From contig CANQKX010000007.1 in the NCBI GenBank assembly GCA_947624565.1, forward strand, positions 1 through 54,796: a stretch of DNA of 54,796 bases. The letters are read 5' to 3'. Under the pieces are notes generated by a model. It was not told the DNA's origin. It did no database searches and saw nothing but the letters and a program-made list of their open reading frames with translations. The translations under genes and the position numbers were made by a program. Shown one piece after another: positions 4,846 through 42,064 of this stretch. Position 1 is the first letter of the stretch. Every line of letters begins with the position of its first letter. The DNA is from an uncultured Bacilli bacterium. Lineage in GTDB: Bacteria > Bacillota_I > Bacilli_A > RF39 > UBA660.

Positions 4846-5508
4846 AATTATATCTTTTATTATATAATCTGCAATTAATATTCCTGCAATATTAGGTACT
4901 ACACTATATGATCCTAATGATTTATTTTTTATACATTCTTCATTACTAGATAATACTGTTACTTTATCATTTATATTAAGTTTATTTAATTCATGTCTTA
5001 TTACTTTAGCAAGAGGATCATAAGTAGTATTTTTTATGTCTGTTATAGTAAGTTTTTTAGGATCAATTTTATTAGCAGTACCCATAGATGATATAAAATT
5101 AATATTTCTATTTAAACACTCTCTAATAAGCATTATTTTAGTTGATACAGTATCGCATGCATCTATTAAATAATCAATATTATATTTAAATAATTCTTTT
5201 TTATTATCTTCATTTAAAAATATATTTAATTTAATTATATTAACATTTTTATTTATATCTTTAATTCTTTTTTCAAATGCATCAACTTTATATTTATCAA
5301 TATTTGAATCAGTTGCTATTATTTGTCTATTTTTATTTGTAATTTCAATAGTATCTTTATCTACTATAATAATATTTTCAATAGAATTTCTAATTAATGT
5401 TTCAAGAACATATCCACCTACTCCACCAAGACCAATAACTGCTACTGTTTTATTTTTAAGTTTTTTAATATTATCATCACCAATAATTTTTTCTAATCTT
5501 TCAAACAT
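4831..5508 (-). CDS. tcdA: tRNA threonylcarbamoyladenosine dehydratase (TcdA-like)
   Basis: This ThiF/MoeB/E1-like enzyme is expected to adenylate and cyclise t6A37 to ct6A in tRNA. The nucleotide-binding glycine loop is GLGGVGGYV near residue 27, followed by the acidic strand end DKDTI and the NKNRQI motif typical of E1-like adenylating enzymes. The IDACDT motif and the DPLAKVIRHEL segment are characteristic of the YgdL/TcdA subgroup. At 225 residues it is slightly shorter than Bacillus YrvM. The start follows AAAGGTGATATTATG. It overlaps rarA by four bases at the stops, in a conserved neighbourhood with the 6S RNA gene and aspS. Confidence 0.88.
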   Translation of the reverse strand: MFERLEKIIGDDNIKKLKNKTVAVIGLGGVGGYVLETLIRNSIENIIIVDKDTIEITNKNRQIIATDSNIDKYKVDAFEKRIKDINKNVNIIKLNIFLNEDNKKELFKYNIDYLIDACDTVSTKIMLIRECLNRNINFISSMGTANKIDPKKLTITDIKNTTYDPLAKVIRHELNKLNINDKVTVLSSNEECIKNKSLGSYSVVPNIAGILIADYIIKDIIKTED

Positions 5509-5550
5509 AATATCACCTTTAATGATTATATCATATAGTTAATATTATAT

Positions 5551-6639
5551 CTAATTAATTTTATATTTATATAGTTCATAAATAATTGATAATATTGGTA
5601 CACATAAAATTAGTCCTAGTATACCAAAATTAATTCCAGAAATAATAGAAACGATAAAGACTATAATACCTGGTACATTAAAATTCTTTTCCATCAATTT
5701 TGGCATTATAAAATTACTTTCAATAAAGTTTGCAACTATTACAATACCTATAAATAACAATGATTTTATTATTGAATTAGGCAAAATTAGTATAAGACCA
5801 ATAATAGTTGCAATAAAAAGTCCTACTACAGGAATAAGTGTCAATACTGATATTATAATAGAAATAGATATTGAATAAGGTATTCTTAAAATTAGCATTA
5901 ATATTAATGAAATAATTCCAATAATTATAGCTTGTAAAACTTGCAATATAATAAATTTTTCAAATTTATCTTTAGTTATATTACTAATTTTTAGTAATTT
6001 TTTATATTTTTTTATTGTCAAATGTTTTTTTATAAATTCATTTACAGTTTTTTTGACTTTTTCTTTTCTTAATAATATTAAAATTGATATTATAATTCCT
6101 AAAAATATATTAATAACAAAATTTGTTATATTTCTAACTATATGAATAGAACTAAATGCTAAACCACTTGAATTATTATTTATTATTTTCAAAGTATCTG
6201 AAGTTATATTTTTTAAATTTATTTTATTAATAATATTTTTGATATATTGATTATTATTTAAAAAATCATTGTAAATTGTTTTAATATTATTTAATAGATT
6301 TGGTATTTTTTTTGATAATATGTCTATTGTATTAATAATTTGAGGAATAATTAATATAATAGTCATAACAACAATAAAACTAAGTATTAATAGTGTTAAA
6401 ATAACAGATATCAATCTTTTTTTATTTTTATTTTTTACTTTTAATTTTCTATCAAATAGTTTAACTAAAATATTAAGTATAAAAGCAATTATAAAGCCAT
6501 ATATCAATGGGCTTATGATATTAAAAATAATATATATTACATACATTGCTTTTTTAAATTGAAAAATAAAAAAGCAAAGAATTATTGCATATGTTATTAG
6601 TAATAAATTTTTTTGAATATTATTATTTGATTTAGTCAT
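5551..6639 (-). CDS. AI-2E family transporter (membrane protein), copy 1
   Basis: This is an integral membrane protein of the AI-2E/PerM exporter family. It has a cluster of N-terminal membrane segments, a soluble amphipathic region (about residues 90-160) and a C-terminal block of four to five hydrophobic helices containing NFIMPKLMEKN and GLILCVPILS, which are family hallmarks. I chose the start at 6639, because GGTGATATTATG precedes it; an upstream in-frame ATG at 6684 lacks such a site and lies close to the 6S RNA terminator. The substrate is not evident, and family members also include sodium/proton antiporters. A paralogue is encoded at 11981-13033. Confidence 0.85.
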   Translation of the reverse strand: MTKSNNNIQKNLLLITYAIILCFFIFQFKKAMYVIYIIFNIISPLIYGFIIAFILNILVKLFDRKLKVKNKNKKRLISVILTLLILSFIVVMTIILIIPQIINTIDILSKKIPNLLNNIKTIYNDFLNNNQYIKNIINKINLKNITSDTLKIINNNSSGLAFSSIHIVRNITNFVINIFLGIIISILILLRKEKVKKTVNEFIKKHLTIKKYKKLLKISNITKDKFEKFIILQVLQAIIIGIISLILMLILRIPYSISISIIISVLTLIPVVGLFIATIIGLILILPNSIIKSLLFIGIVIVANFIESNFIMPKLMEKNFNVPGIIVFIVSIISGINFGILGLILCVPILSIIYELYKYKIN

Positions 6640-6690
6640 AATATCACCATTAATATTATTTAATAAATATGATATATTATTCAAAAAAAT

Positions 6691-6864
6691 AAAAAAACCT
6701 AAAAAGGTCAGGGACGATAAACCTACACATATGTGCAGGTGGGCACCCCATAATAGATTTTAGGATCCTTATTAAAAATAAGTATTCGACACCATCTACT
6801 AATTCTGGTTCCCTTATAGATCGTTTAGTGGGTTTTATGTTCACCTGATTGTTCCTTCTTAGGT
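6691..6864 (-). ncRNA. ssrS: 6S RNA (SsrS-like)
   Basis: This transcript of about 174 nt lies between aspS and the AI-2E/tcdA genes on the minus strand. Its ends pair: ACCUAAGAAGG (complement of 6854-6864) forms an 11-bp closing stem with CCUUUUUAGGU (complement of 6697-6707), followed immediately by a U-tract acting as terminator. The interior is much richer in G and C than the surroundings and can fold into a long imperfect hairpin. In Bacillus subtilis, as I recall, the 6S-1 gene lies between aspS and yrvM (tcdA), so position also supports the call. 6S RNA binds the sigma-A holoenzyme. The central bubble was not modelled. Confidence 0.8.
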
Positions 6865-6870
6865 AATTTA

Positions 6871-6880
6871 ATTATAACAT
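6871..6880 (-). promoter_or_regulatory. Extended -10 promoter of 6S RNA
   Basis: The minus strand reads TGTTATAAT (6871-6879), a perfect TATAAT with the TG extension. It lies about seven bases before the first paired base of the RNA. The -35 position (about 6894-6899, TTTATT) is poor, so the extended -10 is probably the main element. Confidence 0.7.
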
Positions 6881-6921
6881 ATGTATAATAAAAAAATAAA
6901 GTAGTTTGACAAAAGTTTACT

Positions 6922-8661
6922 TTATTTTTCTATTTTTATTTTTAAATCCTGTAATTGCTTAATATCTACTTCATTTGGAGCATCACTCATAAGACAACTT
7001 GCAGATGATGTTTTAGGAAATGCTATTACATCTTTTATATTATCTGTTTCACATAAAAGCATAGTAAGTCTTTCAAGGCCAATTGCAAGACCTCCGTGTG
7101 GTGGAGTTCCATATTTAAATGCATTTACGAAAAATCCAAATTTATCTTTTATTTCTTCTTTAGTAAGTTCTAATGCTTCAAACATTTTTTGTTGCACATC
7201 TGCTGTATGAATACGAATAGATCCACCACCTGTTTCATAACCATTACAAACTATATCGTATGCTTTAGAATAACAATTTTCTTTATCTGTAAGTAATTTA
7301 TCAATATCTTCATCTTTTGGAGCAGTAAATGGATGATGAGATGATACATATCTACCCTCTTCTTCACTATATTCAAAAGATGGAAAATCAACAACCCAAA
7401 GTAATTTATAATCATCATTTTTATATAATTGTAAATCTTTAGCTATTTTACATCTAAGTGCACCAAGTGATTGTTTTACAATTAATCTTTCTCCTGCAGT
7501 TATTAATATCAAATCATTATCTTTAATTTTTAATTTTTTTATTAATTCTTTACTTATATTATCATCTAATATTTTAGCAATACTACCTGTAAATTCTTCA
7601 TTATATTTTAAGAAAAACAAACCATTTGCTTTATAATTTTTAACAAAATCTGCTAAAACATCTATATCTTTTCTTGAATATTTATCAGCAGCATTTTTAA
7701 CTACAATAGCATTTATTATGCCATTATCATTAACTATATTATTAAATATGGCAAAATCTGCTTTATTAAGTAACTCAGTAACATCAATAATTTCCATACC
7801 AAATCTAAGATCTGGTCTATCAGAACCATATTTATCAATCGCATCACAATATTTCATTCTCATAAGAGGTAACTTAATGTTAACATTTTTTATTTCTTTA
7901 AATATTTTTTTAAATAACTTTTCAGTAATATTCATTACATCTTCTTCACAAACAAAACTCATTTCCATATCTATTTGAGTAAATTCTGGTTGTCTATCTG
8001 CCCTTAAATCTTCATCTCTAAAACATCTAGCAATTTGATAATATCTTTCAATACCACCAATCATTAATAATTGTTTATATATTTGAGGACTTTGTGGAAG
8101 TGCATAAAAACTTCCCTTATTTACTCTACTAGGTACAAGGTAATCTCTTGCTCCCTCAGGAGTAGATTTAGACAAAATTGGAGTTTCTACCTCTATAAAA
8201 TCATTATCATTAAAGAATTTTCTAGCACACATCATAATTTTATGTCTAGTTATTAAATTATTTTTAATTTCATCTCTTCTTAAATCCAAATATCTATATT
8301 TAAGTCTTGTATCTTCTAATGCATCATTTTTATCAAGTTCAAAAACTGGAGTACTTGCCTCATTTAATATTTCTATTTCTGATACAATTACTTCTATATC
8401 ACCTGTTTTTAAATTAGGATTTTTATTTAATCTTTCCTTTATTTTACCCTTTACTTTAAGTACATACTCATTTCTTATTTTTTCTGCTAATTCATAACAT
8501 GAACTATCTGGATTTATAGTAAGTTGTATAATTCCACTTCTATCTCTTAAATCTATAAATATTATCCCGCCTAAATTTCTAACTTTTGATGCCCATCCAT
8601 ATAATTCAACATCTTCATTTATATTTTTAATATTAAAATCAATATTATTATATTTCTTCAT
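6922..8661 (-). CDS. aspS: Aspartate--tRNA ligase
   Basis: This class IIb aminoacyl-tRNA synthetase charges tRNA-Asp. It has the bacterial length of 579 residues. An N-terminal OB-fold anticodon-binding domain (about 1-105, with VRNLGG and FIDLRDRSG) precedes the catalytic core. Motif 2 is RCFRDEDLR near residue 215, followed by QPEFTQIDMEMSF. The bacterial GAD insertion spans about residues 275-410. Motif 3 is GLAIGLERL near residue 540. The stop lies about 58 bases upstream of the 6S RNA start. No T-box is seen upstream. Confidence 0.97.
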   Translation of the reverse strand: MKKYNNIDFNIKNINEDVELYGWASKVRNLGGIIFIDLRDRSGIIQLTINPDSSCYELAEKIRNEYVLKVKGKIKERLNKNPNLKTGDIEVIVSEIEILNEASTPVFELDKNDALEDTRLKYRYLDLRRDEIKNNLITRHKIMMCARKFFNDNDFIEVETPILSKSTPEGARDYLVPSRVNKGSFYALPQSPQIYKQLLMIGGIERYYQIARCFRDEDLRADRQPEFTQIDMEMSFVCEEDVMNITEKLFKKIFKEIKNVNIKLPLMRMKYCDAIDKYGSDRPDLRFGMEIIDVTELLNKADFAIFNNIVNDNGIINAIVVKNAADKYSRKDIDVLADFVKNYKANGLFFLKYNEEFTGSIAKILDDNISKELIKKLKIKDNDLILITAGERLIVKQSLGALRCKIAKDLQLYKNDDYKLLWVVDFPSFEYSEEEGRYVSSHHPFTAPKDEDIDKLLTDKENCYSKAYDIVCNGYETGGGSIRIHTADVQQKMFEALELTKEEIKDKFGFFVNAFKYGTPPHGGLAIGLERLTMLLCETDNIKDVIAFPKTSSASCLMSDAPNEVDIKQLQDLKIKIEK

Positions 8662-8716
8662 TATTTCACTTCTTTCTCATGAATATATGTATATTTTTGT
8701 TCAATAATATTTAGTA

Positions 8717-9337
8717 TTATTTTTTTGTTTTACAAATTTCTTTTAACTTACATGTATCACATTCAGGTTTAATTGCTTTACAATAATATCTTCCAAAAAG
8801 TACTAATTGTTTATGTCTTTTATTCCAATTTTCTTTTTTAAATTTTCTTCTAAGTTTCATTTCTACATCTAATACAGAATCATTTTCTTTAGCAAGTCCT
8901 AATCTTTTACTTACTCTTTGTACATGCGTATCAACTGCTATATTAGGTTCTATTTCAAGTTCACCAAATACAACATTTACAGTTTTTCTACCTACTCCAG
9001 GCATACTCTCTAAATCTTTTCTTTTTCTTGGCATAATACCATCATATTTATCACATATAATAGTAGCTATTTGTTTTATATAATTTGCTTTTTTGTTATA
9101 AGAGCCAAGTTCTTTTACAATATTTTTTAAATCATCAATATTTGCATTTTTTAATTCTTCTAATGTTTTATATTTATTAAATAATACTTTTGTTACTTTA
9201 TTTACTCTTTTATCAGTAGTTTGAGCACTAAGCATAACAGCAATTAAAAGTTCATAGTCTTTAGTATAATTTAACTCACATCTTGGATTATCTATTAATT
9301 CATCAATATAATTTTCTATTAATTCTACTTTATTCAT
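8717..9337 (-). CDS. nth: Endonuclease III (DNA glycosylase/AP lyase)
   Basis: This base-excision repair enzyme removes oxidised pyrimidines and cleaves abasic sites. It has the usual length of 206 residues. The helix-hairpin-helix contains PGVGRKTVN with the catalytic Lys near residue 115, followed by the catalytic Asp in VDTHVQRVSKRLG. The C-terminal iron-sulfur loop has the exact spacing Cys-x6-Cys-x2-Cys-x5-Cys (residues about 186-203). Its ATG overlaps the hisS stop by one base (TAATG), indicating translational coupling. Confidence 0.95.
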   Translation of the reverse strand: MNKVELIENYIDELIDNPRCELNYTKDYELLIAVMLSAQTTDKRVNKVTKVLFNKYKTLEELKNANIDDLKNIVKELGSYNKKANYIKQIATIICDKYDGIMPRKRKDLESMPGVGRKTVNVVFGELEIEPNIAVDTHVQRVSKRLGLAKENDSVLDVEMKLRRKFKKENWNKRHKQLVLFGRYYCKAIKPECDTCKLKEICKTKK

Positions 9338-10587
9338 TATAAATTAACATCAAAGTAATCAATGATATCATCAATTGCTACTTTTCTTTCTTCTTTAGTT
9401 AAATTATCTCTTATTGTTAATTCATTACTACTTGCTTCTTCTTCACCAATTATAATTATTTGTTTTGCTTTATATCTATCTGCTTCTTTAAATTTAGATT
9501 TCATATTTTTATTTGATAAATCAAGATCAATTTTATACCCACACATTCTAAGTTTTTGTGCTAAATTAAGTGCATATCCATTTTCATTTTCAGAAATAGT
9601 TAATATATAACAATCAAGTTCATCATTTAAATTTAATTTAATTTCATTTGATTCAATTTCAGAAATAATTCTATCTAAACCAAATGCAAAACCAATCGCA
9701 GGAATATCAGGACCATCTAGTGATTTTAAAAGATCATTATATCTTCCACCACCACCAATTGATCCAAATTCATTTGTTTTAGTTACATATTCAAAAACTG
9801 TATTTGTATAATAATCTAATCCTCTAACTAAAGTATCATCTACTTCATAATCAATATCTAAAGAATCTAAATATTTTTTTACCTTATCAAAATGATCTTT
9901 TTCTTCTTCATTTAAATAATCTAAAATAGATGGAGCATTTTTAACTAATTTATTATTACAATCTATTTTGCAATCTAATATTCTAAGTGGATTTTTATCA
10001 AGTCTATTTTTACAATCATCACAAAAGTTATCTATATCACTCTTAAAATGATTTATTAATGCTTTTTTATATTTTTCTCTAGTTTGCATGCTACCTATTG
10101 AATTTAAAACTACCTTAACATCTCTTAAACCAAGTTCTTTTAAGAAGTTAACTCCTAAAGATATTACCTCAGCATCCATTATTGGATCATTAGATCCGTA
10201 ACTTTCAATACCCATTTGTCTAAGTTCTCTATATCTACCTTTTTGTGGTCTTTCATATCTAAACATTGAGCCAATATACCATAATTTAAGAGGTAATATA
10301 TTATATAATTTATCTTCAATTATTGCCCTTGCAACACCTGCGGTTGCTTCTGGTCTAATTGTATTTTTTCTATTTCCCCTATCTACAAAATCATAAGTTT
10401 CCTTAGTTACTATATCAGTTGTTTCTCCAACACCTCTATGATATAATTCACTTCTTTCAATTAAAGGAGTTTCTATATAACTATAATTATAACTTTCGCA
10501 TACAGCTTGAAATAATTTTTTTACATAATCGTGTTTTTTAGATATATCACCATAAACATCATATGTCCCTTTTAATTTTTGTATCAT
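9337..10587 (-). CDS. hisS: Histidine--tRNA ligase
   Basis: This class IIa synthetase charges tRNA-His. It begins MIQKLKGTYDV; I placed the start at 10587, because AGGAAGTG lies just upstream, rather than at an in-frame ATG six codons earlier. Motif 1 (IETPLIERSELYHRGVGE), motif 2 (RPEATAGVAR and GSMFRYERPQKGR) and the histidine loop GLDYYTNTVFEY near residue 258 are present, as is the GGGGRYNDL motif. The C-terminal anticodon-binding domain follows. A run of four Cys between residues 190 and 215 (FCDDCKNR, LDCKIDCNN) resembles the insertion seen in many Firmicute HisRS. Confidence 0.97.
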   Translation of the reverse strand: MIQKLKGTYDVYGDISKKHDYVKKLFQAVCESYNYSYIETPLIERSELYHRGVGETTDIVTKETYDFVDRGNRKNTIRPEATAGVARAIIEDKLYNILPLKLWYIGSMFRYERPQKGRYRELRQMGIESYGSNDPIMDAEVISLGVNFLKELGLRDVKVVLNSIGSMQTREKYKKALINHFKSDIDNFCDDCKNRLDKNPLRILDCKIDCNNKLVKNAPSILDYLNEEEKDHFDKVKKYLDSLDIDYEVDDTLVRGLDYYTNTVFEYVTKTNEFGSIGGGGRYNDLLKSLDGPDIPAIGFAFGLDRIISEIESNEIKLNLNDELDCYILTISENENGYALNLAQKLRMCGYKIDLDLSNKNMKSKFKEADRYKAKQIIIIGEEEASSNELTIRDNLTKEERKVAIDDIIDYFDVNL

Positions 10588-10633
10588 TGTAACACTTCCT
10601 ATCATAAAAATTATATCATATTTATTACTTTTT

Positions 10634-11407
10634 TTATAGATATTTACTTATATTTTCATCAGTATACCTTAAGGTATATTCTTTTAAATTATAAATATCT
10701 TCTAAAGATGTAATTGCAAAATTAATCCAGTCATTCATTCCTTTTCTTACTATTTTAACATCTTCCTTTTTTATTTCTTTTATATTGATAATATCATTTA
10801 TATATTTCTTTTTATATTTTTTAAATAATTCTATTTTATTTTTTGGATGAATTACATCAAATTTTTGTATTTCTATATAAGAATCATCAAGTTCTTCGTC
10901 ACTTACATCTTCATTTTCATCATCATCTTCTGAATATTCTTCATTGTCAGTATTACCTATATATAATTCATATTCATATTCTTGTTGAATTGATGGAATT
11001 GTACTAAGTACACTACTATGTACTTTATATTCTAAATCTTGTTCAAATAAACTAGGATTATCTTCATTATTATCAAAATTTGTATATTCAAATAAGCTTG
11101 ATTTTATATCAGGATATAATACTTCATCAATATATTCAGAAAAATCTTGAATATCATTAAAATCTATATAATTTGCTGCATAAATTAAACCTTTAACATA
11201 CCTAATTCTATTTAATTTTTCATATTTTTTATTTAATACATATGATCTTAATATATACTTTCTTACATATTGTACATTAGGAAGTACTTTAGCAAAGTAT
11301 TTTTCTACCTCATCTGCATCTTTTACTTTTCTTTTAAATAATGGTATATTATCAAGACTAAATAATCCTCTTTTATAAAATTCTACTCCATAACTAAATT
11401 TTTCCAT
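10634..11407 (-). CDS. Hypothetical protein with acidic central stretch, 257 aa
   Basis: I do not recognise this protein. It looks soluble and cytoplasmic. The N-terminal half (about 1-110) is rich in Tyr, Lys and Arg. A strongly acidic stretch of Glu, Asp and Asn follows at residues about 155-175, and the C-terminal 70 residues are again basic and helical. It has no Cys and no known motif. It sits about 45 bases upstream of hisS on the same strand and may be cotranscribed with it. The start has a GGGGAG site. Its function is unknown. Confidence 0.65.
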   Translation of the reverse strand: MEKFSYGVEFYKRGLFSLDNIPLFKRKVKDADEVEKYFAKVLPNVQYVRKYILRSYVLNKKYEKLNRIRYVKGLIYAANYIDFNDIQDFSEYIDEVLYPDIKSSLFEYTNFDNNEDNPSLFEQDLEYKVHSSVLSTIPSIQQEYEYELYIGNTDNEEYSEDDDENEDVSDEELDDSYIEIQKFDVIHPKNKIELFKKYKKKYINDIINIKEIKKEDVKIVRKGMNDWINFAITSLEDIYNLKEYTLRYTDENISKYL

Positions 11408-31847: not shown

Positions 31848-31870
31848 AAATAGCCACAAATGGCTATTTA
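31848..31870 (-). terminator. Terminator of the surface-protein locus
   Basis: AAATAGCCA (31848-31856) pairs with TGGCTATTT (31861-31869) around a four-base loop, overlapping the stop of the large SpaA-domain gene, with TTATTTTATT after it on the minus strand. Confidence 0.75.
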
Positions 31871-34800
31871 TTCATTTTTTTTATTATAAACATAAGTATA
31901 CCAATTACTATTAATAAACCTACTATTATTAATGTATATCTAATTACTGTTTGCCCAGTTTGAACGCTAAGTACTAATTCTGAATCAGCTTTATTTAATT
32001 TTATATTAGGTTGAGTTGGTTTTTTATTTGTTATTATAAAATCTCCTCTTACTTTTCCATCATCAGTAACAAAGAATGTTGATACATTTATTGATGCCTT
32101 TGGAAGTACATATCCTTCTGGTGCTTTTGTTTCAAGAACTCTATATTGACCTTCAGTTAATAAATAAATTGTTGCTTGTCCGTTAGTAGTAGTTATTGTT
32201 GTATTATTACTATTATAATCTATAGTATATACAGAGCCTTCTTTTTCTTCTAATTTACTAACAAAAACATCTTCATATTTTTTCTGTTTATTTAACTTTT
32301 GTAGTTTATATTCTCCACCATCTAACAATTTATTATATTCATCATATTTATAAAATGTTATTGGTGTATAATTATTTTCAATACTTACATCTATATCTTT
32401 ATCTTCTGTACTCTCTGGTAAATATACCAAAACATATGGATCATCTGGTAAACTATAACCTTCTGGTGCTTTTGTCTCTTCTATTACATACCAACTTTCT
32501 GTTTCAAGATATTCTACTAATAATTCACCAGATTTTATAATACCTGAATCATTTGTTTCTTTTCCTATTTCACTACAATTTTCTATACATGTAGTTATAT
32601 CAGTAGTATCTCTTACTTCTTTATTTTCATATTCACCATCTCTGATTGTTTTAAATGCTAATAATTGACCGCTGGTTATGACATTATTTTCAGCAGATAA
32701 ATTTTTATCATAATTAGTTATTTTATATACCCTAAATCTAGCGCCTGTAATTAAACTTCCATCTTGTGAATATTTTCTTATTATCAATCTTGATGGTTTA
32801 TTTTTAACAACTTCTGTATCCGCTTCTATAGTAGTTCCACTAACTTCAAAATATGTTTCAGCTTTTTCTCCTACAGGCAAATCATATCCTTTTGGTGCTT
32901 CTATTTCTTTTAATACATAACTACCTTTAGGTAAATATCTAAATACAATATAACCATTAGTAATATGAATTTTAACATCAGTCTTTGCATTTAATTTTGA
33001 ATATCTATATGCGTACTCCATATTACCAAGAGCATCAGGTATAAGTGTTTTTTCAGTAACATAAATTCTTGTTAAAGAACCATCACTTTCTTTTTTATAT
33101 AATTCAAATGTTGTTTTATATTCTTTATCTTCAATTAATTTTCCTGTTTTTAAATCTCTTTTTTCTATTTTTATTCTTGTTGGTGTATTTTCTGTTACAT
33201 TTGTAATTGAATCATCATTTTCATTTTCTGGTTGTTCTTCTTTAATATTATATGTTTTCTTTGGATGATCATCAGGTAATATAAATCCTTCTGGTGATGA
33301 TACTTCTTCAATAGTATAACTTGTATTATTCATTAGATGTGTTATTATAAGTTTTCCATTATAAGTATTTATTTGTTCAACTGTATTATTATCATCAAAA
33401 GGTAAATACCTATATACTTCATTACTTATCTTCTTTAATCTCAATACATTACCATTTTTATCTTTTAAGACAAATTTTGCAGTATCTAGTAATTTTTCAT
33501 CACTATCTATTTTAGCCTTATCATCTGCTGTATAATATTTATAAATATCTGTTTTTTCAAAATTTATTTGAACTAACTTATTTACTATATTAGCATTAGA
33601 TGAATCCATGCCATCAATTACACCATTATTATATTTTGTTATATCAAAAGCCTCTTTTGTACTATTGTAATAATATCCAGGTACTCCTTTTATTTTTTCA
33701 TTTGTATACCATGTACCAGAATTTTTGAAAACTACTTGTTTTTCTGTTTCTGTAAGTGTGTATTCTGCTTCATTTACTGTATATTCTCCCCATGGTAAAT
33801 ATTTTATATTAAACTTTCTATTTGTAGTATGAAGTAAAGTTATACTTCCATTTTTATCATACCAATATTCACCATTACCCTTATCAGTAAATTTTAATGG
33901 TGGATTATCACCTTTTTTAGTTATTGTAAATTTTGCTATGTCAATTAAACTAGTAATTGTATTATCATCATTCGTAGCATCATCATTTACTTTTTTTACA
34001 AAATCCAATTTTGTTGGATAATTTATAAATGTTGAATTATTTCTAATAGTTCCATCAAGATTTTTAATAGTTTGAGTATTTGTTACATCATTTACATTTA
34101 TTAGTATTCCACTTTCAGTTTCCTGTGGTTTAAAGAAAGTATATCCATCAACTAATTCAGTTTCAAGAATCTTATAATCTGTATTAGCAGTTACATATTT
34201 AATACATACTCCTGCTTTTATTGATTTTGTTTCTACAGATCCATCTTCTTTTGTAGAATTTATTGTAATATCTTTCGTAACTAATTTTTCAATGTTACCA
34301 CTTGCATCTTCTAAATAACAATCATCAGTATCTTTTTTTGTAAATTTAACTAATTTATTATTCTTGTATACATTAAAACCAACATTATTTAATGGAGCAT
34401 TTGTTTCACCATCTATCTTGTTAAAATACATATATAATGGTGTTTCTAATTTAGTATCTTCTACATATCCATTTGTATCAGTATTAGATGTTGAAGTTAT
34501 TTCAAAATCAGGCATTTTTTTATAACCTTCAGGTATCTTGGTTTCTACAGCCCTATATGTAGTGTTTTTTGTTACATTTTTAATACATACTTCTCCATTA
34601 TTATCAGTTTCAGTATAATTTGTAGTACCATCAGTACCTACTTTTTCAGTTCCATCAGAATTTCTATCTATCACATAACAACCATGGTCTTTTTCAGATT
34701 TCAATGCAACAGCATTACCTGTTTGTTGATTATATACATTAAATCCTGCACCTGTTAATCTAGTATGAGTTTCACTATCTTCTTTATACCAAATTATTTT

Positions 34801-36768
34801 TAATGGTTTTTCTGTAATAGCAGCAGGTAATTTTTGTGCGGTATCATCATTTGGTCCTATTGTTATAGTCATATCATTAGCTTTTTGATATCCTTCTGGC
34901 ACTTTATCTTCTTTTTCTTTTATTGTATAAGTAGCCCCCGCAGTTACTTTACTTAAGCATGCAACTCCATCATTAATTGATTTTTTCGTATATACTGTTG
35001 TTATAGTATCATTACCACTATTATCTACTACATAACAATTTTCTGAATCTAAATTTTTACTAAAATGTACTATTTGATTATTATTAAATATCTCAAATCC
35101 TGCTTCTAATGGGTCTCCTGTTTCTTCATCTTTTTTATAGAATCTTGTTTTTATTCGATCTTCACCAAGTTCTGTTTCTAAAACAGTTGGATCTGTATTT
35201 GGACCTATTGTTATACTTTTAGGATTCATTTTTAAATATCCTTCTGGTACATTAGTTTCTTCTATTGTATAAGTAGCTCCCGCAGTTAATTTACTTAAAC
35301 ATGTAGCTTTATCTGTTGTTGTAAATATTTCTGTTATAGTATCATTACTACTGTTATCTACTACATAACAACCTTCTGAATCTGGATTTCTACTAAAATG
35401 TACAACTTGGTTATTGCTTGTTTTTATCTGAAATCCTGCGACTAATTTATCTTTTGTATCAGAATCATTATCTTTCTTATAAAATTTTGTTTTTATTGGG
35501 GTATTAGTAGCAGTAAAAACTGTCACATTGCCATCAATATATGGATTACCAGTTGTTGATGTTGCAGGTATTGTAATCTGTTTATCAGCCATCTTTAGAT
35601 ATCCTTCTGGAACTACAGATTCTGATAAAGTATATGTACCTGGTTTTACATCTACAGCCTCGCCGTTTCCTTTAATTTTAATAGCGCTAACTCCATCACT
35701 TCCACTACTAGTTGATCTCAAAATAAATTCAGAACCAGATAATAAATTATTATTTTCATCTTTTTTAACTACTTTAAATTTTGTTTCTTTCTTATTTTCT
35801 ACTGTTATAGTTGTTTCTCCACCACTATTACTTACTTTTGCATAATATGTATATGTTTTTATTTTATAATCTCCTACTGTTGAAATCTCTCTAATGTAAT
35901 ATTCAGATCCACCTAATAATGTATCTTTAGGTGATCCCTTACCATAAAATATTTCACCATTTTGATCAGTAACACCACTATAAATCATATTATTTGCAGT
36001 TAAATTTATTGCATCAGAATGTGAATTATATATATTAAATCTTACCCCTTGCAAAGGTTGTCCATTTTCATCAACTTTCTTAATTTTTATATGGCCATAT
36101 TTTTTTTCAGCACCAATTCTATATATTATGGCACCATATGGTTCTTTTTGACCGTCACTATATGTATAATTTAATAATTCTTTCTTTATAGAGCCTTTTT
36201 CATAACTAAGCGCATGATACAAAAGAGGGTCTTCTCCAGCAGTTGCTACTATTGCAGCGTGAGCCATTACATCAGAATTTCCAGTATAAAATATTATTAT
36301 ATCTCCTGCTTGTAATTTATCCCTTAGTCTTTTTGTTCTACATGCTGCTACTGTATTATTAGTAGCTGAATCATTCTTTGTTATAAGTCCACAACCATCA
36401 AATCCTTTAGGATCATCATACACTACTGTTAAATTACCATCACTTGATTTTGTCTTTGAATCCAAATAAGCTTTCAATGGAGTAGCTCTAGCAGTATTTT
36501 CACATGCAGTACCAATATCAGAAAATTGGGAATAGCCACCCTTCTTATAATAGGCATAATATAAAGCATGCGCTACGAAACCTGCACATGACCAGTTTTT
36601 CTCATCAGAATAATCGCCAGTACCATATCCATGTCCAACCATATTTTTTTCAATATAACTAGATATATCTGACCAATTGTCTAGTGCAAAAACATTTTTA
36701 ACATTATAATTAATCATGCAAATGATAGCAACAAATAAAACTATTATTTTTTTTATTATTTTCTTCAT
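31864..36768 (-). CDS. Surface protein: NlpC/P60-like domain plus about eleven SpaA/Cna-B domains
   Basis: This exported, wall-linked protein has 1634 residues from the ATG at 36768. The same frame also offers GTG and TTG starts up to 36786. Residues 1-28 are a signal peptide. Residues about 30-220 form a cysteine-peptidase-like domain of NlpC/P60 type (Cys61 in SCAGFV, His170 in MAHAAIV, with AGDIIIF between). About eleven SpaA-like domains follow (from residue 228 to about 1585), each with an early Lys strand and a late E-x-x-PEGY-type motif. The third to sixth carry Cys pairs. The C-terminus has SVQTGQ, a hydrophobic helix and KKMNK, resembling a sortase signal without the LPxTG consensus. 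A pilin- or adhesin-like role is inferred. Confidence 0.85.
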   Translation of the reverse strand: MKKIIKKIIVLFVAIICMINYNVKNVFALDNWSDISSYIEKNMVGHGYGTGDYSDEKNWSCAGFVAHALYYAYYKKGGYSQFSDIGTACENTARATPLKAYLDSKTKSSDGNLTVVYDDPKGFDGCGLITKNDSATNNTVAACRTKRLRDKLQAGDIIIFYTGNSDVMAHAAIVATAGEDPLLYHALSYEKGSIKKELLNYTYSDGQKEPYGAIIYRIGAEKKYGHIKIKKVDENGQPLQGVRFNIYNSHSDAINLTANNMIYSGVTDQNGEIFYGKGSPKDTLLGGSEYYIREISTVGDYKIKTYTYYAKVSNSGGETTITVENKKETKFKVVKKDENNNLLSGSEFILRSTSSGSDGVSAIKIKGNGEAVDVKPGTYTLSESVVPEGYLKMADKQITIPATSTTGNPYIDGNVTVFTATNTPIKTKFYKKDNDSDTKDKLVAGFQIKTSNNQVVHFSRNPDSEGCYVVDNSSNDTITEIFTTTDKATCLSKLTAGATYTIEETNVPEGYLKMNPKSITIGPNTDPTVLETELGEDRIKTRFYKKDEETGDPLEAGFEIFNNNQIVHFSKNLDSENCYVVDNSGNDTITTVYTKKSINDGVACLSKVTAGATYTIKEKEDKVPEGYQKANDMTITIGPNDDTAQKLPAAITEKPLKIIWYKEDSETHTRLTGAGFNVYNQQTGNAVALKSEKDHGCYVIDRNSDGTEKVGTDGTTNYTETDNNGEVCIKNVTKNTTYRAVETKIPEGYKKMPDFEITSTSNTDTNGYVEDTKLETPLYMYFNKIDGETNAPLNNVGFNVYKNNKLVKFTKKDTDDCYLEDASGNIEKLVTKDITINSTKEDGSVETKSIKAGVCIKYVTANTDYKILETELVDGYTFFKPQETESGILINVNDVTNTQTIKNLDGTIRNNSTFINYPTKLDFVKKVNDDATNDDNTITSLIDIAKFTITKKGDNPPLKFTDKGNGEYWYDKNGSITLLHTTNRKFNIKYLPWGEYTVNEAEYTLTETEKQVVFKNSGTWYTNEKIKGVPGYYYNSTKEAFDITKYNNGVIDGMDSSNANIVNKLVQINFEKTDIYKYYTADDKAKIDSDEKLLDTAKFVLKDKNGNVLRLKKISNEVYRYLPFDDNNTVEQINTYNGKLIITHLMNNTSYTIEEVSSPEGFILPDDHPKKTYNIKEEQPENENDDSITNVTENTPTRIKIEKRDLKTGKLIEDKEYKTTFELYKKESDGSLTRIYVTEKTLIPDALGNMEYAYRYSKLNAKTDVKIHITNGYIVFRYLPKGSYVLKEIEAPKGYDLPVGEKAETYFEVSGTTIEADTEVVKNKPSRLIIRKYSQDGSLITGARFRVYKITNYDKNLSAENNVITSGQLLAFKTIRDGEYENKEVRDTTDITTCIENCSEIGKETNDSGIIKSGELLVEYLETESWYVIEETKAPEGYSLPDDPYVLVYLPESTEDKDIDVSIENNYTPITFYKYDEYNKLLDGGEYKLQKLNKQKKYEDVFVSKLEEKEGSVYTIDYNSNNTTITTTNGQATIYLLTEGQYRVLETKAPEGYVLPKASINVSTFFVTDDGKVRGDFIITNKKPTQPNIKLNKADSELVLSVQTGQTVIRYTLIIVGLLIVIGILMFIIKKMNK

Positions 36769-36792
36769 ATTTTTTTCACGCACCAATCTATA

Positions 36793-37554
36793 TTATTCAT
36801 CTTGACCTGTTACAAAAGTAGACATATTTGCATTATAATCACTTAAATTAGAAGTAGAAGGAGGTGTATTTTTAGGTAAAAGTTTTATTTGAATTGCTTC
36901 TATTTGTTTAGAAGTTTCTCTACTTCCTGCAGGTTCACCATTTTTTGCCCAACCTAGCCATCCAAATGTTTGTGAATGTACTCTATAATAAACATCATAT
37001 TCTTTTGAAATTGCACCAGTCAATTCAATTCTAATAGCTTCCATCCTTAAAGCGTCTCCCGCAGTACCAGACATATCATTATTTGAAACCCAATCTCCCC
37101 ATCCTTTTGACTGAATGTGAGATTTATATCTAATACCACCATCATTAGAATTAATATTTTCTAATTTAATTTTTATTGCTTCTACTCTTAATTTAGCACC
37201 TGTTGTTCCTGCAGTTTGACCATCTGATACATAATTTTCATTTCTGGTTTCTTTTGGACACGTTCTGTCATCATGATCTCCATCTATGTGAGTAACACCT
37301 TCTGTAGCTATTATTTCACTTTGTATTACAGCACTTGATATCCAACCACATTTTTGAACATGTACCAAATAAGATACTTGAGGTGTAGCTGCTAATTTAT
37401 TACCTGATTTAAATAAATGAAAGCCTGTTTCTTTGTCATATATTTTATTAAAATTTAGTAAAACTACTGATAATACTAATAAAACTAATATTGCACATAC
37501 TATTATTTTATTTTTTTTATTTGGATTATTACTTTTTTTAACATTTTTTTTCAT
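36793..37554 (-). CDS. Membrane-anchored protein with three ChW (hydrophobic-W) repeats
   Basis: This 253-residue protein has a basic N-terminus and one hydrophobic segment (about 17-36), so it is exported and probably stays anchored. Three ChW repeats follow. The second (YKSHIQSKGWGDWV, later AGDALRMEAIRIEL) and third (YRVHSQTFGWLGWAKNGEPAG, later QIEAIQIKL) are canonical. The first (YLVHVQKCGW to RVEAIKIKL) is split by about 34 extra residues that contain DGDHDD and a second Cys. ChW repeats are known from clostridial exported proteins. It is the middle gene of the exported locus, 16 bases after the adhesin-like gene. Confidence 0.88.
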   Translation of the reverse strand: MKKNVKKSNNPNKKNKIIVCAILVLLVLSVVLLNFNKIYDKETGFHLFKSGNKLAATPQVSYLVHVQKCGWISSAVIQSEIIATEGVTHIDGDHDDRTCPKETRNENYVSDGQTAGTTGAKLRVEAIKIKLENINSNDGGIRYKSHIQSKGWGDWVSNNDMSGTAGDALRMEAIRIELTGAISKEYDVYYRVHSQTFGWLGWAKNGEPAGSRETSKQIEAIQIKLLPKNTPPSTSNLSDYNANMSTFVTGQDE

Positions 37555-37570
37555 AGTTATACCTCTATTC

Positions 37571-40500
37571 TTACTGTAATAATATATTTTCTTTTGAAAC
37601 TGTAATAACAGGTCTTACAGTTGCTTTTGTAGTAGCCACTTGTGATATAGGTGTAGTAGTTTTATTAATAAGAATTGCCTGATTTGCTACACTATTCATT
37701 GTATTACCATACTCATCTTGAATTATACTTACATATTCTGAATTCATTGTCCAATAGTTTTTTGTACCTATAAGCCAATCTACATTACTTAATTTAGATA
37801 CTAAATTATCAAACTCATTAGTTGTTAATAATCTTACTCTATAATTATTATAAACTCCACTTTGACACTTTCCTTCAGAAGATAATGTTCCACCATATGA
37901 TGCATTACTTAATCCAGATGCATCATCACAAATAGATTGTTCAACTAATATTCCTTTATCAATGCTATTTGTTTCAAGCCAAGTAGTATTGATATATTCA
38001 TTTATAACAGATGTGCTCCATTTATAAACATCGTTAGATGATGTAATGTGAGACATTGTAGTAGCTATTTCATCTTCATCTGCTAATAAAGTTACATTTT
38101 TCCCATCATCATTTATAACATGGAAATTTACCCCTGCATAAGATAATGAAGATCCAATTTCAAAATTATTTATAATATATTCATCATCTTCTCTATTTAT
38201 TTCTTGCTCTATATATGGAGTCAAATCAACTATTTGTACTTGATTTAAGAATACTCCAGCTTCTTGTCTTGGACTCATATCAAGTGCAATTTGCAATGTT
38301 CTTTGTTCTCCAGGTTTTATCAAATCATTTTTAAGTGAATCTGAATATACACTTCCATCAACACTAAACCAATCTTTATTTTCTTCATAAGAAGAATTAA
38401 ATGACATACCATCTGGCAACATTTCTTCAATCATACTAACATATCCTGATGTATCACTGTTATTTGTAATTACAAATCCATAATATACTTTTGCATATAT
38501 ATTTTTAGTATTTTTTACACTTAATGATATAGTTTTTAAGAAATCATAATCATTTGTAGTAAGTTTACCATCTTGATATAATTCAACTTTATTTATACCT
38601 TTTTTAATATCAACCTCAAATCCTGTTTTTGATATTAAACCTAAATCTAGATTACTTTGAACTTCTACATCCTTAGTTACTTTAATACCATTAGTTTTAC
38701 TACTTATTTCTGCTTTTCCCTCTTCATCAGATACTTTATATGCATCTGAATCAATTGTTTCATCAGAAGTAAAATATCTATCAGTTACATCGTATCTTTC
38801 ATTGTCATACATAAAATTAACTTTATATCTACCAATATCTAATTTATCAAATTTATAATTACCATTTTCATCAGTCATAGTATTATCAATATCTTTACAT
38901 TGATTTTTTGAATCTAATTTACATAAACTTACATTTATATCTTTTAAATATAAACTATCATCTTTTATACCATTTTTATTTTGATCAACAAATACTTGCC
39001 CAGAAATAGTTCTATTTACAACTCTTACCTTTGCCTGTGAAGATTCTGTTTGTATTAACTTTTCACTTTTTGCATAAAATTTATTATTATATTTATCTGA
39101 ATATGAATTGTTGCTTGTTTTTACTTGTAATACAATAGGTTGCAAATTTTGATTAGCTAAAACTTTAATATTATCTATCTTAAATGCGAATGTATTAATA
39201 TAATCATTTGTTATATTACAATCTTCCCATTTATTAAGTGTAGAATCAACTTCTTTTACTACTTTTGATCCCTCATCGTTATAACAAGAAACTTTTACAT
39301 TTTTAAGAGAATCTGGAAGAATCATTTTTACTTTATAACTTCCTTCATATTTACTTTCTAATTCATCATTGTTATATGGTAAAATATCCATAATTGATAA
39401 ACTGTTTATATCTTCATTTGAATTATTATAAATATTTAAATTATAATTAAATTCTCCATTTTTTTCTATTACACTACCTAAACTACCAACATCTTCTGTA
39501 ATAATAATACCATCAACACCAGTTACATATATTGTCTCTTTAGCACTAGATGATCCAATTACACTAGTATCAACTTCATTATTTACATTAATTGCATCTA
39601 CTGTACTTTGAACAACTACTTCGTTATTTGCTCCTTTTATATCTGATTTAAATACAGCATCAAAATAAATTGAGTCTATTTTTTTATTTGGTTTAGTATA
39701 CGATAAATCATATATTAACCTAGTCGTATCACCATAACTAATTACTGATACAGGTTTCATATAATTATTATTTTCTTTATATATTAATGTATTAGGCAAT
39801 AATACTGTTACCTTTAAAGATTTTATATACCAAACATCATCAGCACCTACATTTATACTATTATCATCTATTTTAACATCAATTTTATATTTTAATGTTT
39901 CATTATCTTTTGTATTATAAGATAATTTTTTTGTTCCATCACTTTTTTTGTTAGTTATATTTATAGAATTCTTAGATGAAAAACTAACTATTTTCAAACT
40001 ATCTGCATATGGTTTATCATCAACTATTGCATTTGTTCCCTCGTATCTTGTTTTTATATAATTATTATAATTAGTAACACTTGATACATCATTAGAAACA
40101 GAAGGTTCAAAATATATATCGTTTTTATTATTTTTAGATTTAACTAATGTCAAACCTTGGTGAGTTTGAGTAATGTCTTTAATATTTCTTACTCTAAGTC
40201 CAATAATAAAATCTATTTTTTCATTTGAATCTAATACTTTATTATCTTTAGTTTCAATAATAATCTTACTTACTTTTACCCCATTAATATCTTTTATATC
40301 ATTATAAACTTGTTCAACATCACTTTTTGCTTTTATACATGGTCCACCATATAAATTCATGATTTGATCTGAATTTAAATTATTATAATTATTTTTTACA
40401 TTTAAACATTGATTTTTAATTGTATCTTTGTCTTCATTTAAGAAATTACCTTCCATAGTTTCATCACTATAGTTTATAACTTCATAATTATTTTTATCAA

Positions 40501-42064
40501 AACTACCAGTTATATATTTTATTGTAAAATCATCTTTTGATAGATTACATTTTTTTTCATCACAAGTGATATCTAATAAATAATCATTATCTTTATTTAA
40601 TTTTATTACTTCATAAGCATCAGGATCAATCTTTATCATTTGAATAATACCTGTTTTTAAAACATTATTATTAAAATTAAAGCTTGATTTATATGCTATT
40701 TCGTCACCTCTTGTAACTGAAGCATAATTTCTTTCTTTTGAAACCCTATTAGACAATGATATAAAGTTTGTTTTATCAACAAATGTACCTGATATAAAGT
40801 AATCACTTTCTTCTTTATATTCATTTATTATACTAGCAGTATTATTATTAATTGTAGTTTCTTTTAAATCTTTATCATCTTCGCTTTTTGCAATTACACT
40901 ATTAGACTTATTAGCATTCATTGTAACTACAATATTATTTTTTGCATCAGAATCTTCTCTTTGAGAGAATGCTGTTATAGCAAATGTTGAAAATATTGTT
41001 CTAGAATTATCAATAATATTTCCAGTTGAAGTTACATTACTAGTACTGCTATCATAATTAGATATAGTAATTGTATATGTAGAGTCACTTTTCTTAGTAA
41101 AAGTAATATCTCCACTTGGATTATATGGCAATTCCATTGCTACTGGAGTTATATTTGCAACTTTTTCATTTGTGTATGGTCTTATAAAATCTTTATCAAC
41201 TACTAAAGGTCCTCCATTACTAGATGATAAATCAATATCAAAAGTAATATCACCTTTAGGTAATTGTAAACCTTTTATACCTTTACTTTCATTATCAGAA
41301 AGTAATTGTAATGCTAAACCAAATGTTACATATCTACCATTTTTGTCATTTAAGGTTGCTATTTCAGTTTGATTAGATGAAACAACAAGTACATCTACAC
41401 TAGATTTTGATGAAACTACAGTAGGCATATAATTAGTAAATCCAGATACACTACTTGTAGAACTATATTTACCATTGTTATATTCATAATAATCTATATC
41501 ATTGACTTTACCTAAAACTATTCCATCTTCTTTATCAGTTGATTCTTTAATTATAAAAGTGGGATTTATCTCATATCCATTTGGTGCACTTTTTACATTT
41601 AATTTTATAATTTTATTAAAATCTCCATATGTATTAACATCAAATATAGGATATGTTATTGTTGTTTTATCATCACTTATAGTAACATCAATATCCCTAT
41701 TTGTTGATTCATAAACAAAATCTGTATATTTAATATCCTCTTTAGATAATTTCATAGTAACAAATACAACTCTATCTTCTAAATCATCAACATCTACATT
41801 TTCTTTAGGTTTTATACTAAATTTAATATCATATGAAATTGTATCAAAACTTCTAACTACTCTATCAGATGAACTAACATCATTCCCAGCAGCATTTGTT
41901 TTATCAAAAGGCTCACTACCTGTTTGTATTGAAGTTATTTGAGCATCTTTAATATCCACTTTATTTGCATATTCATCTGCACTTGCATAAATTCTAATAA
42001 ATATTATAGATATAATTACTATACCAATTACCAAAAAAAATATATTTCTTTTTTTATTATCCAT
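37571..42064 (-). CDS. Large exported adhesin-like protein with SdrD-B-like and C-terminal DUF6273-like domains
   Basis: This 1497-residue protein opens with a signal anchor (about 6-27). A long beta-rich region follows, with repeated segments of the DUF11 or adhesin type such as NLNIYNNSNEDINSLSIMDILP. Near residues 1018-1110 there is an SdrD-B-like domain (SGQVFVDQNKNGIKDD, then TDENGNYKFDKLDIGRYKV). The last 200 residues, with YAGVNFHVIND, INEYINTTWL, YWTMNSE and RPVITV, resemble the DUF6273 domain of surface and phage-related proteins. Cys occur in close pairs, suggesting disulfides. There is no C-terminal sorting signal. It is the first gene of the exported operon and begins after AGTAGGAGAGTTAATATG. 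Confidence 0.82.
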   Translation of the reverse strand: MDNKKRNIFFLVIGIVIISIIFIRIYASADEYANKVDIKDAQITSIQTGSEPFDKTNAAGNDVSSSDRVVRSFDTISYDIKFSIKPKENVDVDDLEDRVVFVTMKLSKEDIKYTDFVYESTNRDIDVTISDDKTTITYPIFDVNTYGDFNKIIKLNVKSAPNGYEINPTFIIKESTDKEDGIVLGKVNDIDYYEYNNGKYSSTSSVSGFTNYMPTVVSSKSSVDVLVVSSNQTEIATLNDKNGRYVTFGLALQLLSDNESKGIKGLQLPKGDITFDIDLSSSNGGPLVVDKDFIRPYTNEKVANITPVAMELPYNPSGDITFTKKSDSTYTITISNYDSSTSNVTSTGNIIDNSRTIFSTFAITAFSQREDSDAKNNIVVTMNANKSNSVIAKSEDDKDLKETTINNNTASIINEYKEESDYFISGTFVDKTNFISLSNRVSKERNYASVTRGDEIAYKSSFNFNNNVLKTGIIQMIKIDPDAYEVIKLNKDNDYLLDITCDEKKCNLSKDDFTIKYITGSFDKNNYEVINYSDETMEGNFLNEDKDTIKNQCLNVKNNYNNLNSDQIMNLYGGPCIKAKSDVEQVYNDIKDINGVKVSKIIIETKDNKVLDSNEKIDFIIGLRVRNIKDITQTHQGLTLVKSKNNKNDIYFEPSVSNDVSSVTNYNNYIKTRYEGTNAIVDDKPYADSLKIVSFSSKNSINITNKKSDGTKKLSYNTKDNETLKYKIDVKIDDNSINVGADDVWYIKSLKVTVLLPNTLIYKENNNYMKPVSVISYGDTTRLIYDLSYTKPNKKIDSIYFDAVFKSDIKGANNEVVVQSTVDAINVNNEVDTSVIGSSSAKETIYVTGVDGIIITEDVGSLGSVIEKNGEFNYNLNIYNNSNEDINSLSIMDILPYNNDELESKYEGSYKVKMILPDSLKNVKVSCYNDEGSKVVKEVDSTLNKWEDCNITNDYINTFAFKIDNIKVLANQNLQPIVLQVKTSNNSYSDKYNNKFYAKSEKLIQTESSQAKVRVVNRTISGQVFVDQNKNGIKDDSLYLKDINVSLCKLDSKNQCKDIDNTMTDENGNYKFDKLDIGRYKVNFMYDNERYDVTDRYFTSDETIDSDAYKVSDEEGKAEISSKTNGIKVTKDVEVQSNLDLGLISKTGFEVDIKKGINKVELYQDGKLTTNDYDFLKTISLSVKNTKNIYAKVYYGFVITNNSDTSGYVSMIEEMLPDGMSFNSSYEENKDWFSVDGSVYSDSLKNDLIKPGEQRTLQIALDMSPRQEAGVFLNQVQIVDLTPYIEQEINREDDEYIINNFEIGSSLSYAGVNFHVINDDGKNVTLLADEDEIATTMSHITSSNDVYKWSTSVINEYINTTWLETNSIDKGILVEQSICDDASGLSNASYGGTLSSEGKCQSGVYNNYRVRLLTTNEFDNLVSKLSNVDWLIGTKNYWTMNSEYVSIIQDEYGNTMNSVANQAILINKTTTPISQVATTKATVRPVITVSKENILLQ

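Follow-up and report, generated by a model that had tools for sequence, protein, structure and literature searches.

Conserved cysteine pairs in tandem SpaA-type domains of a Bacilli surface protein: a probable disulfide in addition to, rather than in place of, the isopeptide bond

Disulfides beside isopeptides have already been published, and the kind of arrangement considered here is therefore known. The D3 domain of SpaD from Corynebacterium diphtheriae has a disulfide and an isopeptide in one CnaB-type domain (PMC4014117), and the N-domain of FimP from Actinomyces oris, also of CnaB type, has a disulfide with the isopeptide unformed (PMC3485203). In the available part of a global survey, disulfides alongside isopeptides are predicted to be prevalent in SpaA_2, SpaA_3 and SpaA_4 (PMC12617251). 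The C-domain of GG-SpaA from Lactobacillus rhamnosus GG (Pfam SpaA, PF17802; PDB 5f44) has an isopeptide between Lys184 and Asp295, with Asp as the partner residue (PMC4923907).

The domains described here (D1 to D11) are found in a single protein encoded in the window, which is the whole stretch of DNA analysed (54,796 nucleotides). They share with GG-SpaA the Lys in strand A, the catalytic Glu and the partner position in strand G, and D3 has the same fold as the GG-SpaA C-domain, whose Asp partner is likewise found in some relatives of the window domains. However, GG-SpaA has no Cys at the aligned positions, and the partner in D3, D4 and D5 is Glu. SpaD and FimP are both from Actinobacteria and their Cys spacing is different. 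Above the Pfam cut-off, the window domains match SpaA and not SpaA_2, SpaA_3 or SpaA_4, and a Glu partner, as seen in D3-D5, is not described in the available part of the survey. What is particular here is the conserved Cys positions of this family and the combination of Lys, catalytic Glu and Glu partner in three consecutive domains.

The source genome was assembled into 27 contigs totalling 1.06 Mb (94 % complete). The relatives with a name are Bacilli and Erysipelotrichaceae genomes assembled from metagenomes; one of these came from the duodenum of dairy cattle. The protein consists of a signal or anchor segment, a papain-like N-terminal domain, eleven tandem SpaA/CnaB-type domains (from residue 232, the start of D1, to residue 1592, the end of D11, delimited by hand and by profile) and a C-terminal transmembrane tail. 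SpaA was the only Pfam family above its cut-off. The features are as follows.

31864..36786, minus strand, gene for the 1640-aa surface protein (translation of the window; Pfam SpaA E=8e-75, ten stretches)
36097..36690, minus strand, N-terminal domain, residues 33-230, with candidate catalytic Cys67 (weak Amidase_6 and NlpC/P60 similarity)
35491..36093, minus strand, D1-D2, without Cys, with Lys, Glu and Asn (masked scan; D1 by hand)
35149..35490, minus strand, D3 (residues 433-546), Lys437, Cys473, Cys496, Glu510, and Glu542 replacing Asn
34801..35148, minus strand, D4 (residues 547-662), Lys551, Cys584, Cys610, Glu624, and Glu659 replacing Asn
34435..34800, minus strand, D5 (residues 663-784), Lys668, Cys703, Cys734, Glu748, and Glu781 replacing Asn
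34009..34434, minus strand, D6 (residues 785-926), Lys790, Cys823, Cys861, Glu875, Asn922 (full isopeptide triad and Cys pair)
32011..34008, minus strand, D7-D11, with Lys, Glu and Asn, Cys in D10 only (masked scan; D11 by hand)

The N-terminal domain has the look of a papain-like amidase or NlpC/P60 protein (motifs SCAGF, AHAAIV and LLYHAL), and its matches to Amidase_6 and NlpC/P60 are both below the curated cut-offs. No relatives of this domain were found among 291 genomes of the family, and the relative of the 1640-aa protein in L027 has a different N-terminus. A phage origin was considered and rejected, as the Listeria phage matches numbered only two and both were weak. The match to the model for LPXTG-anchored SpaH/EbpB-type major pilins (NF033902) scored 72.4 bits, below the curated 95. 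The C-terminal tail is SVQTGQT and contains no LPXTG. When the tails of the giant SpaA proteins were compared (window 31867-31989, L027-L030, L064-L071, L074, L106 and L107), LPXTG was found to be replaced in nearly all of them by a conserved AELIVNIQTGQ-like motif, after which come a transmembrane segment and an end rich in Lys. This motif may be a variant sorting signal, and the source genome encodes three sortases. We read the protein as a probable surface stalk, anchored in the membrane and built of SpaA/CnaB-type domains in tandem, and this reading shares the probability given below for the explanation as a whole.

The Cys codons of D3-D6 and the Glu codons at the partner position are as follows.

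35299..35370, minus strand, D3 Cys pair (Cys473 codon 35368-35370, Cys496 codon 35299-35301)
34957..35037, minus strand, D4 Cys pair (Cys584 codon 35035-35037, Cys610 codon 34957-34959)
34585..34680, minus strand, D5 Cys pair (Cys703 codon 34678-34680, Cys734 codon 34585-34587)
34204..34320, minus strand, D6 Cys pair (Cys823 codon 34318-34320, Cys861 codon 34204-34206)
35161..35163, minus strand, Glu542 (GAA), isopeptide-partner position of D3
34810..34812, minus strand, Glu659 (GAA), isopeptide-partner position of D4
34444..34446, minus strand, Glu781 (GAA), isopeptide-partner position of D5

The spacing between the two Cys is 23 residues in D3, 26 in D4, 31 in D5 and 38 in D6, and in all four domains the catalytic Glu lies exactly 14 residues after the second Cys. 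A scan in which the partner position was masked read this position as E in D3, D4 and D5, and as N in D2 and D6-D10. At every window junction scored, the partner residue is 9 residues ahead of the Lys of the next domain, and because this offset is fixed the register is independent of the gapped alignment. The complete triad of Lys, Glu and Asn or Asp is present in D1, D2 and D6-D11 (D1 and D11 by hand), and D3, D4 and D5 have neither Asn nor Asp at the partner position.

The original prediction, that D3-D6 each carry two Cys ahead of the catalytic Glu, that D1, D2, D7, D8, D9 and D11 lack Cys and retain Asn, that Asn is changed to Glu in D3-D5 with the Lys and catalytic Glu present, and that D6 has both features, agrees with these residues. 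Two details needed correction. The CLSK motif is found only in D3 and D4, with CIKN or CIKY in D5 and D6, and the interval assigned to the four domains (34190-35490) stops within D6, leaving Glu875 (34162-34164) and Asn922 (34021-34023) outside. A close Cys pair in D10 (residues 1400 and 1404, CIENC, 32575-32589), which had not been listed, is accompanied by an intact Asn, and L027 has CESNC at the equivalent place.

D3 alone scored 31.2 bits against Pfam SpaA (cut-off 23.1) and is a member of that family. An AlphaFold model of D3, built from a 14-row alignment, has eight strands and a mean pLDDT of 84. Solved CnaB domains match it from end to end, the best being GBS52 (Z 13.9, 104 residues). 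Residues 1-116 of the model match GG-SpaA residues 180-301 (Z 10.8), with Lys437 on Lys184 and Glu542 on Asp295 at the end points of the match. As modelled, the D3 fold is CnaB-like.

Domains of the Cys-pair subfamily were found in ten other genomes, and the masked scan covered the SpaA proteins both of the window and of its relatives. The partner was Asn in 53 and Asp in 15 of the domains lacking the Cys pair. In the Cys-pair domains it was Asn in 15 (14 outside the window), Asp in four and Glu in three, the last being D3, D4 and D5 of the window, the only domains with a Glu partner. Two further Cys-pair domains, both in L067, were below the scan threshold and were read by hand as Asn and Gln. 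The Gln is in the domain at residue 958 of the ORF at 5278-10662 on the plus strand (YQCPTEVKITK), in a different genus. Hence, the 20 Cys-pair domains outside the window, all with the Lys and catalytic Glu, have 15 Asn, four Asp and one Gln, and the partner is isopeptide-competent in 19 of the 20 as well as in D6. As the Cys pair is found together with a complete triad, the pair would be older than the loss of Asn and does not exclude the isopeptide. Judged from the residues, the disulfide was probably added to the Lys-Asn bond and not traded for it, with D3-D5 alone losing the Asn later. Where the normal partner is missing, no ordinary Lys-Asn or Lys-Asp bond is possible, and the isopeptide is therefore likely to have been lost in D3-D5.

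In the domain tree, D3-D6 form one well-supported group with domains from L027 and L105 (100/99, the support applying to the group as a whole). Four of the L027 and L105 domains in this group have an Asp partner encoded by GAT, and most of the nearest relatives of D3-D5 also have Asp. A single base change converts GAT to GAA, the codon used for Glu542, Glu659 and Glu781. This is consistent with a Cys pair that arose in an ancestor having the complete isopeptide triad, followed by a change from Asn to Asp in the D3-D5 lineage and then from Asp to Glu in the source genome. In the structure that we infer, the disulfide would tie the strand-C region to strand D in D3-D6, in addition to the usual Lys-Asn or Lys-Asp isopeptide between strands A and G. 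D6 would carry both crosslinks, and D3-D5 would now probably be held by the disulfide and a Lys-Glu salt bridge, for which the retained Lys and catalytic Glu leave room. The presence of these two residues in all three Glu domains is contrary to simple decay and counts against this reading. We put the probability of this explanation, namely a disulfide in addition to the isopeptide, an Asn to Asp to Glu series in D3-D5 and the candidate oxidase described below, at about two in three.

The original prediction went further, proposing that one crosslink had been swapped for the other. The conserved Cys pair, the probable disulfide and the missing Asn or Asp partner in D3-D5 bear out part of this, but replacement does not fit D6 and the 19 outside Cys-pair domains that hold the triad together with both Cys. 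In a true replacement, the disulfide would have taken over the stabilizing role and loss of the isopeptide would have followed from that. All four clear losses of the partner (D3, D4, D5 and residue 958 in L067) are indeed in Cys-pair domains, with none at approximately 68 junctions of the other kind. However, three of the four are in one protein and they amount to two to four independent events, so that the pattern is suggestive at most of a disulfide that permits loss of the partner, and we consider replacement unlikely.

For the disulfide itself, the sequences of the Cys-pair domains are informative. An alignment of 14 of these domains, drawn from five genomes, shows no variation at the Lys, at either Cys or at the catalytic Glu. 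Each domain has exactly two conserved Cys, and the alignment contains no third conserved Cys and no conserved His; the two Cys are thus conserved as a pair, in the manner looked for in a disulfide-bonded CnaB-like domain. The eleven window domains contain ten Cys, all in even numbers (chance probability approximately 0.003). Among 86 domains with both Cys columns aligned, 26 have both Cys, 56 have neither and four have one (Fisher p approximately 1e-17), with the caveats that the domains are not independent and that the 26 include two misalignments. Misaligned matches were excluded from the domain counts (HMM matches L068 1219 and L107 182; PSSM matches L029 441 and L065 1455).

Upstream and in the same direction (36793-42064) are genes for a ChW-repeat protein and for an SdrD_B-type protein of 1497 aa that has its Cys in five close pairs, and a giant SpaA protein adjoins a similar large protein again in L027, L028, L030 and L107. 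In each of the three surface proteins encoded at the locus, the number of Cys in the mature part fits pairs; of the Cys in close pairs, ten belong to the SdrD_B-type protein and two to the ChW protein in its mature form.

Profiles for DsbA, Thioredoxin_4, VKOR and DsbB had no matches in the source genome assembly (94 % complete). Five genomes of the genus share a conserved thioredoxin-fold protein with an N-terminal membrane anchor and a CPHC active site (G000:C5:1253-1567), which matches the PedC/BrcD disulfide isomerase family weakly, below the cut-off. A known Gram-positive example of a thiol-disulfide oxidoreductase that acts on secreted proteins is SdbA of Streptococcus gordonii (PMC5112981). 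By inference, the CPHC protein may be an exported thiol oxidoreductase that makes the D3-D6 disulfides, though it could instead be a reductase.

As the two Cys are nearly always found together, the Cys counts of the neighbouring proteins are even and the CPHC protein is conserved in the genus, the Cys pair in D3-D6 is likely to be a disulfide. In an anoxic habitat the cysteines could instead bind metal or remain free thiols; a gut anaerobe may keep its surface thiols reduced, which counts against a disulfide, and the classical oxidase families were not found in this genome. A metal site or free thiols are nonetheless quite improbable given two conserved Cys per domain with no conserved His or further Cys, Cys pairs throughout the locus and a conserved, exported CPHC thioredoxin-like protein. 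A Lys-Glu isopeptide beside the disulfide in three consecutive domains, with Glu as acyl donor, is very improbable: Glu has the same carboxyl group as an Asp partner, and the changed positions are all Glu rather than mixed and lie in domains with the Lys and catalytic Glu, but the extra methylene alters the geometry, the close duplication of D3 and D4 makes the three Glu fewer than three events, and the available part of the survey (PMC12617251) names Lys-Asn and Lys-Asp for CnaB-like domains with no Lys-Glu example found. A literature search for Asp-to-Glu partner variants returned nothing useful.

On the preferred reading, of a disulfide in addition to the isopeptide, disulfide-paired surface proteins would occur, alongside an exported thioredoxin-like protein, in a Bacillota lineage of small genome size where searches for DsbA, DsbB and VKOR found nothing. 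If D3-D5 are without the isopeptide, and D6 and close relatives have it, these domains form a natural matched set with the disulfide only, both crosslinks or the isopeptide only. Such a set would allow the share of each crosslink in the stability of a surface stalk to be measured.
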